DNA of 64,000 bases from an uncultured Bacteroidales bacterium (GTDB taxonomy: Bacteria; Bacteroidota; Bacteroidia; Bacteroidales; Paludibacteraceae): contig CACZOA010000054.1 of NCBI GenBank assembly GCA_902782665.1, positions 58,753 through 122,752 on the forward strand. The letters are read 5' to 3'. The notes below the pieces were generated by a model that saw only the letters and a program-made list of their open reading frames with translations, was not told where the DNA came from and ran no database searches. Made by a program: the position numbers and the translations under genes. Positions 21,655 to 49,742 of this stretch are shown here, piece by piece (within the stretch, counting starts at the first letter, position 1; each line of letters begins with the position of its first letter).

Positions 21655-22872
21655 TTACCATTCGACAACTTGATTTAAGAAATCAATGATATTTAAGTGG
21701 GTTATTCCGTTTCTACTCATATCTATTGAATCCGCACTTATCACATATTTAGGATAATTGTTTCGTATAGACTCAAGATTACCAAATTCCCTATCAACAT
21801 CATGTTCCGTGATTAAATATGCCACTTGTATATATATTGTTTTGTCAGCTTTCGTACAAACAAAATCAATTTCTGCATCATTAAGTTTGCCAACATACAC
21901 ATTCCAGCCTCTGGCCACCAACTCCATATAGACCAAATTTTCACAGACATGACCGATATCCAGTTTGTCGGTTCTACTTAATATTGTACGAAATCCTAAG
22001 TCGACACAATAATATTTCTCAGAAGTCTCGAGAAGTTTCTTACCTGTAATATTATAACGAGGGACTGAATATAAAACAAATGATTTTGTAATAGATTCTA
22101 TATAAAGCAAAACAGTTTCTACACTCGTTTTTACACCTTCGCTTTTTAGTTTCTTCACTATGGAATTGGCTGAAAACGTATTTCCTATATTATCAACGAA
22201 AAACTCGAGCAATTTCCTCAGCAATACGATATTCTTTATTCCATTTCTCTCAAAAACATCCTTCAAAACAATTGTCTCATACAAATCAGAAAGATATATT
22301 TTTCTCGCGTCTTCATCTTGAAAAACAAATCTTTGAGGGAATCCACCATATTTTAAGAAATCAGCAAATAATTTTTCATCAGATATTGCGACTCCTTCAT
22401 TTTTGTAGTATTGCTTGGCTTCTGCAAAAGAGAAAGGAAAAACATTGAAAGAGACATATCTTCCACGTAGGTTTGTAGCCAATTCACCAGAAAGCAATCT
22501 GGAATTTGAACCTGTAATATATATATCACAGTCAAAATCTACTCTGAAGGAATTGATTGCCTCTTCCCAATTTTTGACCTCTTGAATTTCATCAAAAAAC
22601 AGATATGCTTTTCCATCACATTCCGACTGCCACTGACACACATAATCGTATAAGCTATCAGCATCCTTTATATGGTCGAATCGTTTTGACTCATAATTAA
22701 CACTCAATATTTGCTTTTGTGAAACTCCACGTTCAAGCAATAGATCTTTTATCTGTGTCAACAACGTGCTTTTTCCGCAACGACGGACTCCCATAAAGAC
22801 CTTAATCAAATCCTTATCTATAAAAGGAAGTATCTGTTTTATATAGCTATTTCTACGTATCATAAAATTCAT
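21655..22872 (-). CDS. AAA-type ATP-binding protein with DUF4143 domain
   Basis: The 405-residue protein has Walker A GVRRCGKS (about 28-35) and Walker B YLFFDEIQ (90-97) followed by a sensor-like ITGSNSRLL. A winged-helix-like middle lies at about 215-270, and the DUF4143 C-terminus at about 310-385 contains AEIDFV...IYIQVAY, a PD-(D/E)XK-like fold with the last catalytic position altered. Start is MNFMIRR or the second Met. Upstream lie three tandem palindromes that end 2 bp before the -7 box. Such ATPases are common in Bacteroidota genomes but have no settled role. The gene is AT-rich and likely mobile. Confidence 0.88.
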   Translation of the reverse strand: MNFMIRRNSYIKQILPFIDKDLIKVFMGVRRCGKSTLLTQIKDLLLERGVSQKQILSVNYESKRFDHIKDADSLYDYVCQWQSECDGKAYLFFDEIQEVKNWEEAINSFRVDFDCDIYITGSNSRLLSGELATNLRGRYVSFNVFPFSFAEAKQYYKNEGVAISDEKLFADFLKYGGFPQRFVFQDEDARKIYLSDLYETIVLKDVFERNGIKNIVLLRKLLEFFVDNIGNTFSANSIVKKLKSEGVKTSVETVLLYIESITKSFVLYSVPRYNITGKKLLETSEKYYCVDLGFRTILSRTDKLDIGHVCENLVYMELVARGWNVYVGKLNDAEIDFVCTKADKTIYIQVAYLITEHDVDREFGNLESIRNNYPKYVISADSIDMSRNGITHLNIIDFLNQVVEW

Positions 22873-22879
22873 TTTGAAA

Positions 22880-22887
22880 CAAAAATA
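22880..22887 (-). promoter_or_regulatory. -7 box of the DUF4143 ATPase gene
   Basis: TATTTTTG on the minus strand. The nearest palindrome of the array begins 2 bp upstream. The first ATG is only 7 bp downstream, so the transcript has a very short leader or starts translation at the second Met (22863). Confidence 0.6.
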
Positions 22888-22889
22888 GC

Positions 22890-23001
22890 AATTTTATCGG
22901 TCTCTGGACGTATAAAATTAGAAATTTTACAATTTTATCGGTCTTTGGACGTATAAAATTCGAAATTTTACAATTTTATCGGTCTTAAGACGTATAAAAT
23001 T
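22890..23001. repeat. three tandem 30-bp palindromes, period 41 bp
   Basis: Copies lie at 22890-22919, 22931-22960 and 22972-23001, each separated by exactly 11 bp. Left half AATTTTATCGGTC, right half GACGTATAAAATT; 11 of 15 positions pair in copies 1 and 2 and 13 of 15 in copy 3. The spacers (GAAATTTTAC core) are also conserved. The array abuts the promoter of the DUF4143 ATPase, which fits an operator. Confidence 0.9.
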
Positions 23002-23150
23002 AGGAAACTATTTGTCTGGCAATAAACACAAACGGAGGACCGATAATAATTTGCGTTTTCCGTTTTCAAATCGTAATTTTGCTCAAACTTATAATCTCAT
23101 AAAAAACATATAAAAAAAGGAAGATAGATTAATTTACATAATAAATAATT

Positions 23151-23302
23151 AAAGAAGCGTTCGCTTTAGAGTATTCCCGAAATCGCCAATTTTTGTAATA
23201 CTACTATAAAGTGGACGCCCGCGCTGTTTGGCGTGGGTGTCATTGTAGTAGTATGGGTGTTTGGCGATACCTGGGAATAGCAATGATATCCCACGCTTCT
23301 TT
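23151..23302. other. long imperfect inverted repeat, about 150 bp, upstream of HTH gene
   Basis: Four nested pairs fold into one long hairpin: AAAGAAGCGT (23151) with ACGCTTCTTT (23293); TATTCCCG and ATCGCCAA (23172-23189) with TTGGCGAT and TGGGAATA (23261-23279); ATACTACTA (23198) with TAGTAGTAT (23246); GACGCCCGCGC (23214) with GGCGTGGGTGTC (23230), closed by the loop TGTTT. It could be a structured RNA, the leader of the HTH gene, or a MITE-like element with 10-bp terminal inverted repeats. No target-site duplication is clear. Confidence 0.75.
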
Positions 23303-23319: not shown

Positions 23320-23541
23320 ATGAAAAGAGAACAAATACATATAGGAAACATGATAGCCTCTTTTATGAAAAGTAACGGTATATCTAAATCTGAATTAGGA
23401 AGAAGAATCCCATGTCACAGGACTCATGTCTATGAAATTTTAAACAGTCCAAGCTTGCATTCTCAACAAATCCAACGCATCAGTGAAGTTTTAGACCACG
23501 ATTTCTTTGCAGATCTTAGTGAAAAGATGAAAGAAGTGTAG
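23320..23541 (+). CDS. small XRE-like helix-turn-helix protein
   Basis: This 73-residue protein has a Cro/C1-type HTH (about 14-58): MIASFMKSNGISKSELGRRI then HRTHVYEILN and a following helix, ending HDFFADLSEKMKEV. It is likely a DNA-binding regulator. The motif ATCGCCAA is found just before its ATG (23309), twice in the upstream hairpin and once, as TTGGCGA, after its stop (23566), which could be its own binding sites. The GTPase operon starts 89 bp downstream on the same strand. Confidence 0.75.
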   Translation: MKREQIHIGNMIASFMKSNGISKSELGRRIPCHRTHVYEILNSPSLHSQQIQRISEVLDHDFFADLSEKMKEV

Positions 23542-23630
23542 TGTAATAGGCTATATGTAGGGTGATTGGCGACGGTATTTGTTAAGATAATTCAGGACTA
23601 CATAGTTTTTTTGTAAAAAAAATTTGACTT

Positions 23631-24311
23631 ATGTTATTAGAGGTTATTTTTGACAACATCGGAGATTTTCAACAGGTTCATTGCATTGCTCCATTGCTAC
23701 CAGTAATTGCTGGGATTGGTGGGCTTATTGGAATAATAATCACCTATTTTTCTTCTAAAAAGAAGCCAGTAAAAGTAGAAACAATCAAAGAGAATGGAAT
23801 TTGTATATTAGGTCCTGAGCTATCTGGAAAAACTCAATTATTATCTGCATTAAGAGGAGTATCATATACGGAATTTCACCATTCGCAGATGGAAAAATAT
23901 AAAGAATTTGAAGTGTTTTTGGCTGGAGAAAAAATTAAAGTCAAAGCAGGATTTGATATAGGAGGAGAGGAATTTAAAGTAAAAAGCTATCCAAAGCTTA
24001 TCGAAAACAGCGATATAATATTTTTCACATTTGATTCCTATGAATATTTAAATAATCCTGAATATAGGACAAACGATGTAAATGCCAGATTATTTTTTAT
24101 TCATAAACATATCGGTAATAAACCAACTGTTATATTCGGTACACATTTGGATAAATTTGCAGAAGGAGATAGAAAGAATATCATCAAAAGAATTCTGAAT
24201 ACCATAAAAAACGAAAAATATTCTACATTGTTGGAAGATAATTTTACTGTAATGGATTTACGAGAGACCGACAAATTAAATGATTATTTGAAAGACATAA
24301 TTATCAAATAG
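23631..24311 (+). CDS. membrane-anchored Ras/SR-beta-like GTPase
   Basis: The 226-residue protein starts with a hydrophobic segment at about 21-40 (PLLPVIAGIGGLIGIIITYF) and a Lys-rich stop-transfer, then a small G domain: Walker A GPELSGKT (61-68), a DxxG-type G3 DIGGEE (109-114), and THLDK (171-175) in the place of NKxD. The layout (one N-terminal anchor, then a Ras-like domain) resembles the SR-beta/Arf-like class, with the G domain in the cytoplasm. It heads a three-gene run, 1 bp before the next ATG. I do not recognise a named family or system. Confidence 0.8.
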   Translation: MLLEVIFDNIGDFQQVHCIAPLLPVIAGIGGLIGIIITYFSSKKKPVKVETIKENGICILGPELSGKTQLLSALRGVSYTEFHHSQMEKYKEFEVFLAGEKIKVKAGFDIGGEEFKVKSYPKLIENSDIIFFTFDSYEYLNNPEYRTNDVNARLFFIHKHIGNKPTVIFGTHLDKFAEGDRKNIIKRILNTIKNEKYSTLLEDNFTVMDLRETDKLNDYLKDIIIK

Positions 24312-24312
24312 T

Positions 24313-24903
24313 ATGGGAAATTATTATATGACAGCTCAATCAAAAAAGAGCAACAAGAAATCAACATTTGTTATAAATGGTGAAGTTTCTTTGTTTTGCA
24401 ATGATCCAAAGCAACAGGAAGTTGCAGATAAGATGGAGGCAACGATGTTATGGCAAGAAGTACCATACGAAGATAGGCTGAGACAATCAGGTATTCCTGA
24501 GTGGTTTCAAATAAGATACAAAGCAGGTTCGGGTTATTTGATTTCATCTTGTTTTCAAGACGAGGACGAAGCTGGCAGGAAAATGGGATTTCAATTCCTT
24601 GCAGAAACTGATGATTTTGAAGAAACCATTTCTCTATTAAAATTGGCAGCAGAAAAGTCAGGCAGAAAATTAGATGAAAAAGAAATTGAAATATTATCTA
24701 ACATCCAACGTCAACATCAAGAAGAAACGAGGAAGAAATCAAAACGAAAAAATATGAAATATGCCTTAGGAGGACTACTAATAGTGGGAGGTATAACAAC
24801 ACTAATAGCCAAATCTTGCAATGAAGAAAACGAACAAAACAACAATAAATCAGAGTCGGATGCAGTTGTGATAGATACAACAAAAGTAAATAATAAAAAA
24901 TAA
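24313..24903 (+). CDS. unknown protein with C-terminal membrane anchor
   Basis: The 196-residue protein is soluble at the N-terminus (about 1-140, with VINGEVSLFCNDPKQQEVADKM near 20 and an acidic, helical middle), then a basic patch KKSKRKNMK and one hydrophobic segment at about 150-167, ending in an Asn/Glu-rich tail. It begins 1 bp after the GTPase stop and 5 bp precede the next gene, so the three genes almost surely form one operon. No family recognised. It could be the partner or effector of the GTPase; that is inference from position only. Confidence 0.75.
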   Translation: MGNYYMTAQSKKSNKKSTFVINGEVSLFCNDPKQQEVADKMEATMLWQEVPYEDRLRQSGIPEWFQIRYKAGSGYLISSCFQDEDEAGRKMGFQFLAETDDFEETISLLKLAAEKSGRKLDEKEIEILSNIQRQHQEETRKKSKRKNMKYALGGLLIVGGITTLIAKSCNEENEQNNNKSESDAVVIDTTKVNNKK

Positions 24904-24908
24904 CGATT

Positions 24909-25655
24909 ATGGAAGATCTTAAAGGAGATGTGATTTTGATTGAAAAGGATGAACCTGCTATTGCATACAAGTGGGAACCTGAATATGTAGAAGTTCGACC
25001 AGAGATGCAAGTATTACCATATTCATTTTTAGATGAATATAAGAAAAAATATAATCTTCAATTTGAAATTGGACAAAGATTAGTGCCTGGTGTAATGATG
25101 GTTAAACATCCTTATTTGGCAAACACATACGTTGATATTGTGAATTTTGAAGAAAATATGATCAAATACAAATTTGATTGTATGAAAACAATAGCTAAAA
25201 AATTAGGTGCAAAGCAAGTATCAACCAAAATATCAATGTCTGATTGTAGTACAAGAGATTTTGAAGGAAATGGAGATGTTGGTTACAAATGGGTAGGAGC
25301 AAGATTGGATTATAAAAATAGTCAAATGGAACGTCTCTCAAAAAAATATGAGAATGTAGATACAACAGAAGGAGAAATAACAGAACAAACTTACCAAGAA
25401 GCTAAAGAGCTTGCTGCACAAAGTGGATTGATTAATGATTCCGATATCAAAGATCTTTTAATTTTTGCTGAGCCAGGCTCTTCAATAAAAAATAAAACAA
25501 AACATATTTCTATCGACATAAGTAGTGAATCAAATAGATCTAAAGAAATCGCATTTTCTTTGAAGGCAATGAAAATGTTCAATCTAAATGCGGAAATTAA
25601 AGAAACCATTTGCAAAAAAATGAATTTGTCACTAGAAATCGACATTCTGTTTTAG
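24909..25655 (+). CDS. unknown soluble protein, third gene of the GTPase operon
   Basis: The 248-residue protein has no signal peptide and no membrane segment. The first 90 residues contain several aromatic and Pro-rich beta-like segments (EPAIAYKWEPEYVEVRPEM, VPGVMMVKHPYLANTYVDI); the rest is Lys/Glu-rich, with likely helices at about 130-180 and a beta-like end. I recognise no motif. It is low in GC like its two upstream neighbours, unlike the housekeeping genes to the right. Whether it is an effector, an adaptor or an immunity factor cannot be told from sequence. Confidence 0.72.
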   Translation: MEDLKGDVILIEKDEPAIAYKWEPEYVEVRPEMQVLPYSFLDEYKKKYNLQFEIGQRLVPGVMMVKHPYLANTYVDIVNFEENMIKYKFDCMKTIAKKLGAKQVSTKISMSDCSTRDFEGNGDVGYKWVGARLDYKNSQMERLSKKYENVDTTEGEITEQTYQEAKELAAQSGLINDSDIKDLLIFAEPGSSIKNKTKHISIDISSESNRSKEIAFSLKAMKMFNLNAEIKETICKKMNLSLEIDILF

Positions 25656-28156: not shown

Positions 28157-28340
28157 TTTAGAATTAAGAATTAAGAATTAAGAGTCAGGCTCGTAGAGAC
28201 GCACGGACGTGCGTGTTACAACATGTCCTAAACAACGTGCGTGTTACAACATGTCCTAAACAACGTGCGTGTTATAAAGACACATATTATAACATGTCCC
28301 AAAAAAGTGCGTATCATTACAAAATGAATCTGACATCTTA
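28157..28340. repeat. AATTAAG repeat and 28-bp tandem repeat
   Basis: After proB there is GAATTAAG three times, then a 28-bp unit beginning ACGTGCGTGTTACAACATG at 28207, 28235 and (partial) 28263, with a decayed fourth copy. The first 27 bp of this segment (CTCGTAGAGACGCACGGACG and following) occur in reverse orientation at about 43155-43186. It carries no gene and looks like an intergenic repeat that has expanded. Confidence 0.8.
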
Positions 28341-48368: not shown

Positions 48369-48489
48369 TTTAGTATTTACAGATACTAAATTTGAGCCAT
48401 TTTTAGTATTTGCATATACTAAAAACATCTAAAATTTAGTGTTTAGAGATACTAAAAATATCTAAAAATTAGTATTTCCAGATATTATT
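48369..48489. repeat. four tandem 22-bp palindromes, period 33 bp
   Basis: Copies lie at 48369, 48402, 48435 and 48468, each 22 bp with 11-bp spacers. Half sites are TTTAGTATTT and ATACTAAA; 9, 10, 8 and 7 of 11 positions pair, the last copy being degenerate. The array ends 2 bp before the -7 box (48492) of the ATPase gene. It has the same geometry as the array at 22890 but a different sequence. Confidence 0.9.
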
Positions 48490-48491
48490 TG

Positions 48492-48499
48492 TAATTTTG
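48492..48499 (+). promoter_or_regulatory. -7 box of the second ATPase gene
   Basis: TAATTTTG, 31 bp before the ATG at 48531, directly after the palindrome array. Confidence 0.6.
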
Positions 48500-48530: not shown

Positions 48531-49742
48531 ATGGCAGAGTTAGAGATAGAATCACTAAGAAGGACATTCATCCGCAAGTTGATGAACACCCCAATGGATT
48601 TCTTCCGTTATCTTAATTATAAGATAGAATGGAAGGACTCCCTTATTGGCATAAAAGGTCCTAAAGGATGTGGAAAAACGACTATGCTTTTGCAACACAT
48701 CAAAGAATCTTTCCAAGGCAATGATCTCGACAAAGTGCTCTATATATCACTTGACAATCTTTACTTTGCGTCTCATGACATATTGGACGTAGTGGAAGCA
48801 CACTATAATAATGGAGGCACATACATTTTCATTGATGAAATCCATTATTACGAAAAATGGCAAACGCTACTGAAAAATATATCTGATGATTTTCCCGGGC
48901 TCAATGTCGTCTACACAGGATCTTCCATGCTTCAGATCCAAGCCGGAGAAGGAGATCTCTCTCGTCGCCAAGCAATGTATGAGATGAGAGGTCTTTCTTT
49001 CAGAGAATTCCTACAATTTGAGCAAGGCATAAAGCAAGATGTTGTGGGATTGGAGGAGCTGATGCACAACCATGTTGAAATCGCGATGAATATATGTTCA
49101 CAAACGGCGATTCTTCCTTTGTTCAAAAGGTATCTGAAATATGGCTACTATCCATTTTATAAAGATGTCCATAACGGAATAGACGTAAGATTGCAAGCCG
49201 TCGTCAACCAAATAATAGAAAACGACTACGCTAAAATTGACGATGTAAACCTCTCAACAATACGAAAAACAAAAAAGATGTTGATGGTTCTGTCGGAAAG
49301 AGTTCCACAACAGCCCAACATGAGCAGTCTGTACCGTGAACTTGAAACTGATCGTAACCAAGGATTGAAAATGCTATATGCGTTACAAAGAGGCGGTCTT
49401 CTTCTCCTTCTGGGCGATAATGTCAAAAGTTCAGACAATCTATCACGTCCAGACAAGATCTACGTCAACAACCCGACACTTATGTATGCCCTTTCTCCAT
49501 ACGCAGAAATCGGAACCATACGTGAGACATTCTTCTTCAACCAACTGTCGGAGGCTCACGACTGCCGCTATCCAAAAGCAGGTGATTTTCTCGTGGACAA
49601 ACATTATCTATTCGAGGTGGGAGGTAAGAACAAAACATTCGATCAGATAAAGGACATGCCTGACAGTTATCTTGCTGTCGACGATACAGAAATCGGCAGA
49701 GGTAACAAAATACCTCTTTGGCTGTTCGGATTACTTTATTAA
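48531..49742 (+). CDS. AAA-type ATP-binding protein with nuclease-like C-terminus
   Basis: The 403-residue protein belongs to the same broad class as the one at 21655: Walker A GPKGCGKTT (about 43-51), Walker B YIFIDEIHYY (about 98-107), YTGSSML (sensor), a winged-helix-like middle at about 235-310, and a PD-(D/E)XK-like end, DFLVDKHYLFEVGGKNK, which keeps Asp, Glu and Lys. The first ATPase has QVAY in that place, so the two differ in predicted nuclease competence. Its promoter lies right after a palindrome array. Confidence 0.87.
   Translation: MAELEIESLRRTFIRKLMNTPMDFFRYLNYKIEWKDSLIGIKGPKGCGKTTMLLQHIKESFQGNDLDKVLYISLDNLYFASHDILDVVEAHYNNGGTYIFIDEIHYYEKWQTLLKNISDDFPGLNVVYTGSSMLQIQAGEGDLSRRQAMYEMRGLSFREFLQFEQGIKQDVVGLEELMHNHVEIAMNICSQTAILPLFKRYLKYGYYPFYKDVHNGIDVRLQAVVNQIIENDYAKIDDVNLSTIRKTKKMLMVLSERVPQQPNMSSLYRELETDRNQGLKMLYALQRGGLLLLLGDNVKSSDNLSRPDKIYVNNPTLMYALSPYAEIGTIRETFFFNQLSEAHDCRYPKAGDFLVDKHYLFEVGGKNKTFDQIKDMPDSYLAVDDTEIGRGNKIPLWLFGLLY

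Follow-up and report, generated by a model that had tools for sequence, protein, structure and literature searches.

A Probable Private Operator Array Beside a PDC-S01-Type ATPase Gene in an Uncultured Bacteroidales Bacterium

A stretch of 64,000 nucleotides from an uncultured Bacteroidales bacterium (here called the window, meaning the whole of the DNA that was analysed) carries a gene for an AAA_14 ATPase that is preceded by three tandem palindromes. The array is probably a dedicated operator of the adjacent gene, with the ATPase repressing its own promoter by means of a winged helix. Sites that lie beside the promoter, are private to the gene and are inherited together with it, along with a winged helix in the gene product, point to autoregulation of this kind.

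The Array and Its Promoter

The array is made up of three copies of a 41-bp unit with a whole span of 22,889–23,011. The 30-bp palindromes within it lie at 22,890–22,919, 22,931–22,960 and 22,972–23,001, the first two matching their own reverse complement at 22 of 30 positions and the third, the best of them, at 26 of 30. The spacers between them are 11 bp each and have GAAATTTTAC in common. TAnnTTTG is the consensus of the Bacteroidota-type −7 box, and it is fitted by TATTTTTG on the reverse strand at 22,880–22,887, which lies ahead of the start codon of the ATPase gene (21,655–22,872, reverse strand) and 2 bp from the edge of the promoter-proximal copy at 22,890. The three palindromes, their period, the spacers with their common core and the 2-bp distance to the −7 box had been put forward in the original prediction and were confirmed, with the qualification that the palindromes are imperfect. 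The array scored 62 at a period of 41, as against a mean of 8.2 and a maximum of 11 in 20 dinucleotide shuffles; these shuffles and the control upstream regions described below rule out chance or a simple satellite.

The unit is private to its place. A search of the draft genome (3.33 Mb, 88% complete) that allowed up to 3 mismatches found no second place for TTTTATCGGTCTNNNGACGTATAAAA, which rules out a regulon of scattered sites for the window unit, and a search of viral_contigs for operator copies in viruses gave 0 exact matches of the window pattern. Two other repeats were seen in the window, namely an inverted repeat (23,198–23,254) whose 12-bp arms are 33 nt apart, upstream of a small HTH gene, and a 28-bp tandem repeat of about 2.5 copies (28,207–28,277) ahead of an open frame, with no ATPase linked to it.

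A second array at 48.4 kb consists of four 22-bp sites with a period of 33 bp (48,369–48,489, with starts at 48,369, 48,402, 48,435 and 48,468). Two bp after its last site comes the −7 box TAATTTTG (48,492–48,499, forward strand), and then a forward-strand gene for a second AAA_14 ATPase of 403 amino acids (48,531–49,742). The two arrays had been said to have the same geometry, which holds for the 11-bp spacer and the 2-bp promoter gap but not for the period (41 versus 33 bp) or the site length (30 versus 22 bp). The further proposal that the site sequences differ in spite of the equal spacer and gap was borne out. The 48.4-kb unit has one further place in the genome, C99:33412, with 2 mismatches, and a reversed-pattern control also gave 1 match.

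The ATPase and Its Domains

The protein of the 22.9-kb locus is 405 amino acids long and matches AAA_14 (E 6.3e-34) and, over its full length, the PADLOC profile PDC-S01 (E 9.8e-156, residues 3–401 of 405). It is the only one of the two window ATPases with the Pfam DUF4143 match, as its original naming had it; the 48.4-kb protein goes to AAA_14 and has a weaker, partial match to PDC-S01 (E 2.9e-27, residues 35–341 of 403). PMC12988326, in its accessible text, describes PDC-S01 as an ATPase with a fused PD-(D/E)XK-superfamily domain and ranks it fourth in frequency among defences across prokaryotes, with validation pending for most candidates of this type; according to the corresponding parts of PMC13356809, it is the most frequent individual locus in the rumen genomes of that study. 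By its match to PDC-S01, the 22.9-kb ATPase is a candidate single-gene phage defence. A private operator is not part of the PDC-S01 description in these texts, the available portions of PMC12988326 and PMC13356809 make no mention of PDC-S01 operators, and no description of private operators of such ATPases was found in the accessible open PMC literature.

A structure model built from 49 aligned sequences (mean pLDDT 90.8) shows an AAA core at residues 1–144 (22,441–22,872, bounds set by eye from secondary structure), a winged helix at residues 214–290 (22,003–22,233, likewise delimited from secondary structure) and a separate mixed alpha/beta C-terminal domain at residues 291–400 (21,673–22,002), all encoded on the reverse strand. 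The model and the covariation tests described below suggest the winged helix as the DNA reader. Walker A is present, with G28, G33 and K34 invariant among the 49 sequences. The C-terminal domain has a PD-(D/E)XK-like strand order, its fold being read within the whole model only, and it contains D336, Q349 and A351 without the usual Lys. The motif of D and Q without Lys, in which Q replaces E, is found in 12 of the 15 representatives with array periods above 36, the class of the window ATPase, whereas D, E and K are found in 32 of the 47 representatives with shorter periods. Most of the window's class thus differs from PDC-S01 in missing the catalytic Lys.

The best three Foldseek matches to the model were archaeal Orc1/Cdc6 proteins solved with DNA, and the others in the top ten were clamp-loader subunits, a plant NLR, a human replication complex and, tenth, 8bob, a structure from maltose-system regulation that contains MalT. 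Since the TM-scores by query length were 0.32–0.45 in the top ten, the likeness is at the level of domains and not of the whole protein. By sequence, 2fna and 2qen were the only structures to reach the ATPase profile at E 0.01.

Arrays across the Family

The draft genome of the window has 13 AAA_14 matches at E 0.001, nine of them above the cut-off. Seven of these nine genes have differing upstream repeats (judged by eye), the eighth has the window's array, and the ninth is missing its Walker motif. Three minus-strand loci (L009, L017 and L018), which had been displayed wrongly oriented, were left out of the reading by eye. Among nine draft genomes of the genus the number of matches at E 0.001 ranged from 5 to 37. 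Loci found in the genomes and 100 further fetched regions gave 150 distinct ATPase genes, and their upstream regions were scored for tandem repeats with periods of 26–60 at cut-offs of 14 and, more strictly, 16. A score of at least 16 was reached by 105 of the 150 genes and by 4 of 145 upstream regions that served as controls, drawn from these loci and from the window. Of the 126 genes scored within the genus, 104 reached at least 14.

Clustering at 75% identity gave 62 clusters, with periods of 32–33 in 47, 39–42 in 12, and 44, 51 and 52 in one each; periods of 34–38 were absent among the 62. In 39 of the 62 clusters an exact TAnnTTTG lies close to the array end, from 25 nt before it to 40 nt after it, where about 2.4 would be expected. 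The palindromicity of the tandem arrays, measured by a score of our own, was weak, exceeding all 30 shuffles in 11 of the 47 clusters of period 32–33 and in 3 of the 12 of period 39–42.

Outside the genus the tandem form is sparser, with 7 of 23 genes from other genera reaching a tandem score of 14 and 16 of 23 falling below it. A phylum sample of 24 genes had a tandem array in 3, a palindrome score of at least 11 in 9 more, often close to the start codon, and neither in 12. Among 85 homologues of the window clade from the order, an array was present in 33 (with a period of 39–41 in 30) and an array or palindrome in 51. The 22 homologues from plasmids and phages, which came partly from Bacillota, Pseudomonadota, Fusobacteriota, Spirochaetota and an archaeon, included 10 with an array score of 14 or a palindrome score of 11. 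One homologue, L239, is on a 2630-bp circular record of Prevotella nigrescens (NZ_CP133466.1), a putative plasmid that also encodes a TaqI-like specificity protein. A palindrome score of 11 was reached by 69 of 174 genes and 5 of 206 controls, and an array or a palindrome score of at least 11 was found at 140 of the 174. Homologues without any array, which the original prediction had counted against itself, exist to this extent: 34 of the 174 show no array and no palindrome at these cut-offs. These last counts were 141 and 33 until L118, which owed its score to a stretch of N, was taken out of the positive set.

The placement of the repeats bears on the direction of regulation. A Listeria homologue and one of the two from Enterococcus have a perfect palindrome, of 34 or 36 bp, over the likely −35 and −10 boxes (placed by eye), which points to repression, and in some Bacteroidales homologues repeat copies flank the −7 box on both sides, again as read by eye. 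Both arrangements suit repression and argue against the idea that the ATPase binds the array to activate its own promoter in the manner of MalT-type STAND activators. The position of the Bacteroidota arrays is also compatible with an activator, the tenth fold match is to a structure of maltose-system regulation, and of the 39 clusters that have a −7 box close to the array only 12 show a TTG at the −33 spacing (a raw count, with no background computed), as at activator-dependent promoters. Activation is on balance unlikely, and self-repression is the reading we prefer.

Private Units and Shared Inheritance

The similarity of 107 arrays, taken as the best 22-base match between any two, follows the identity of the ATPases. 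At a protein identity of at least 80% the means were 20.8 to 21.9 of 22 bases; they were 15.4 at 50–60% identity, 15.2 at 40–50% and about 14 below 25%, with shuffled arrays also at about 14. Close orthologues have a common unit, and pairs at 40–60% identity are little above background. At least 18 of the 22 bases were in common despite a protein identity below 50% in 51 of 5524 pairs. The core of the original prediction, cognate pairs of ATPase and array that have diverged in specificity, is supported by this comparison of sequences, in which the ATPase would be the regulator of the array.

The array is also inherited with its gene. The window gene and an 89% identical gene in G012, which belongs to another genus, have DNA homology of 82.6% that covers the array and the gene up to its stop codon, and nothing else. 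Sixty orthologue pairs at 70–98.5% identity were compared (one more was skipped), and 37 of them were non-syntenic upstream. In 27 of the 37 the homology ends no more than 10 bp from an array edge, in 7 it ends more than 20 bp beyond both arrays, and in none does it end more than 20 bp short of both. Grouped into 14 clusters, the 37 pairs have a median homology end within 10 bp of the array edge in 10. On the other side 17 of the 37 pairs lose their homology at the stop codon, at a point from 10 bp before it to 1 bp after it (one with only 15 nt viewable), and in the other 20 the homology continues downstream of the stop codon. A common boundary could also arise if constraint acts on both gene and operator and the flanks diverge.

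The window's site, which follows a DEAD-box helicase gene, was compared among relatives. G001 and G002 carry both the ATPase and the array, G006 (C2, L191) has a decayed two-copy remnant of the array, and no array site passed the search at this site in G003 and G005; the G004 contig ends in the helicase, and G008 was without a match at the cut-off. In G007 (C13, L190) three intact sites are present and the cognate ATPase is absent. This orphan array precedes the gene for an ATPase from a different clade (24% identity) which, by eye, has a long palindrome of its own, so the orphan may be a leftover of a deletion or a captured operator. The evidence named at the outset as counting against the idea is in part present, in the homologues without array or palindrome and in this one relative with the array and without the cognate ATPase; arrays follow identity overall.

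An alternative is that the array is a site for maintenance or recombination, such as replication iterons, a centromere or an exchange point, for which the position at a promoter would be secondary. This explanation can draw on the resemblance of the ATPase fold to Orc1/Cdc6 initiators and on the differing genes beyond the array in G000, G001 and G002, with the remnant in G006 and the orphan in G007. It is made highly improbable by the equal 2-bp gap that both window arrays keep from their −7 boxes and by the many AAA_14 matches in each draft genome, and a varying gene neighbourhood is ordinary in defence islands. The orphan in G007 would likewise suit a host regulator other than the ATPase, the more so as binding of the array by the ATPase is something that we infer; this last alternative is barely plausible, however, given that the genome has no other copy of the window unit, that units differ among paralogues, and that array and ATPase have common homology boundaries.

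Protein Regions and Array Similarity

Covariation between the winged helix and the half-site sequence had been suggested at the outset as a test. Each part of the protein was compared with array similarity by partial rank correlation, whole-protein identity being controlled, over 62 representatives and 535 pairs at 25–75% identity. The first test used bounds of 191–290 picked after a sliding scan, and the repeats used bounds from the structure model. The winged helix gave a partial rho of 0.18 (permutation p 0.001), while the AAA core gave −0.06, the nuclease region −0.07 and residues 145–213 0.03 (p 0.03); these and all the following p-values are guides only, because related sequences are not independent. 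At other match lengths the winged-helix values were 0.18, 0.13 and 0.13 (p 0.002, 0.008 and 0.006), and in the 32–33-bp class, with 362 pairs, they were 0.22, 0.16 and 0.13 (p 0.004, 0.016 and 0.052).

The signal was absent in the longer-period class (66 pairs). In the enlarged window clade the winged helix gave 0.011 for upstream regions (90 representatives) and −0.004 for arrays (48 representatives). In these two sets residues 145–213 had values of 0.124 (p 0.001) and 0.139 (p 0.004); those of the recognition helix taken by itself were 0.07 (p 0.012) and 0.06 (p 0.12). The expected covariation is therefore seen over all arrays and in the 32–33-bp class and fails in the window's own class, even when that class is enlarged. 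This failure is counted against self-repression, as are the orphan array in G007 and the sparseness of arrays in other genera; counted in the same way are the plasmid and phage homologues, 10 of 22 having an array or palindrome, and the 51 cross-similar pairs.

A Self-Contained Unit and Known Systems

Under self-repression, the winged helix of the ATPase would bind the tandem sites of its own array, with ATPase dimers probably touching across the constant 11-bp spacer. The bound protein would cover the −33 region beside the −7 box and repress its own promoter up to the moment of its release by some event. In this view array and gene make up one self-contained unit, and the 5 to 37 AAA_14 matches in a genome of the genus need not cross-regulate, because each paralogue would have its own operator. 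A bolder extension, which is speculative but has some modest chance of being right, makes the array the sensor of a one-gene immune unit. The ATPase would be parked on its private array until an infection, by disturbing the occupancy of the promoter, releases or activates it, and the paralogues would form an independently triggered repertoire in which winged helices and arrays diversify in pairs, such that new copies neither silence nor trigger the others.

Parallels exist among known systems. The available literature on the WYL regulators BrxR (BREX) and CapW (CBASS) presents them as transcription factors likewise dedicated to defence systems; BrxR and CapW are separate regulator proteins, whereas here the regulator would be the effector ATPase itself. 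The ParA of type Ia partition is likewise an ATPase, and according to the accessible text of PMC8465637 the autoregulation of the operon to which it belongs is mediated by ParA itself, but that operon is one with a centromere, whereas the genes studied here have private arrays. The MITEs of Porphyromonas gingivalis (BrickBuilt, 464/PgRS) likewise give a Bacteroidota genome short repeats in tandem, 23 and 41 nt long, as described in the available part of PMC4596501, where one repeat is present in many dispersed elements, in contrast to one unit per ATPase. The MITE repeats were rejected as the identity of the arrays, having no ATPase link (the word ATPase is absent from PMC4596501).

A private operator at so many PDC-S01 genes would offer a direct handle on how PDC-S01 stays silent, and it hints that PDC-S01 may be costly when expressed. 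The family would also supply many natural pairs of protein and DNA specificity for working out a recognition code.

The region beyond the array looks like a variable defence island. In the window (23,320–25,655) it contains the small HTH gene, a weak match to a Roc/Ras-like GTPase and genes without assigned function; in relatives (L187; L188) it contains a KAP NTPase in G002 and two GTPases, septin/AIG1-like and MMR_HSR1, in G001.
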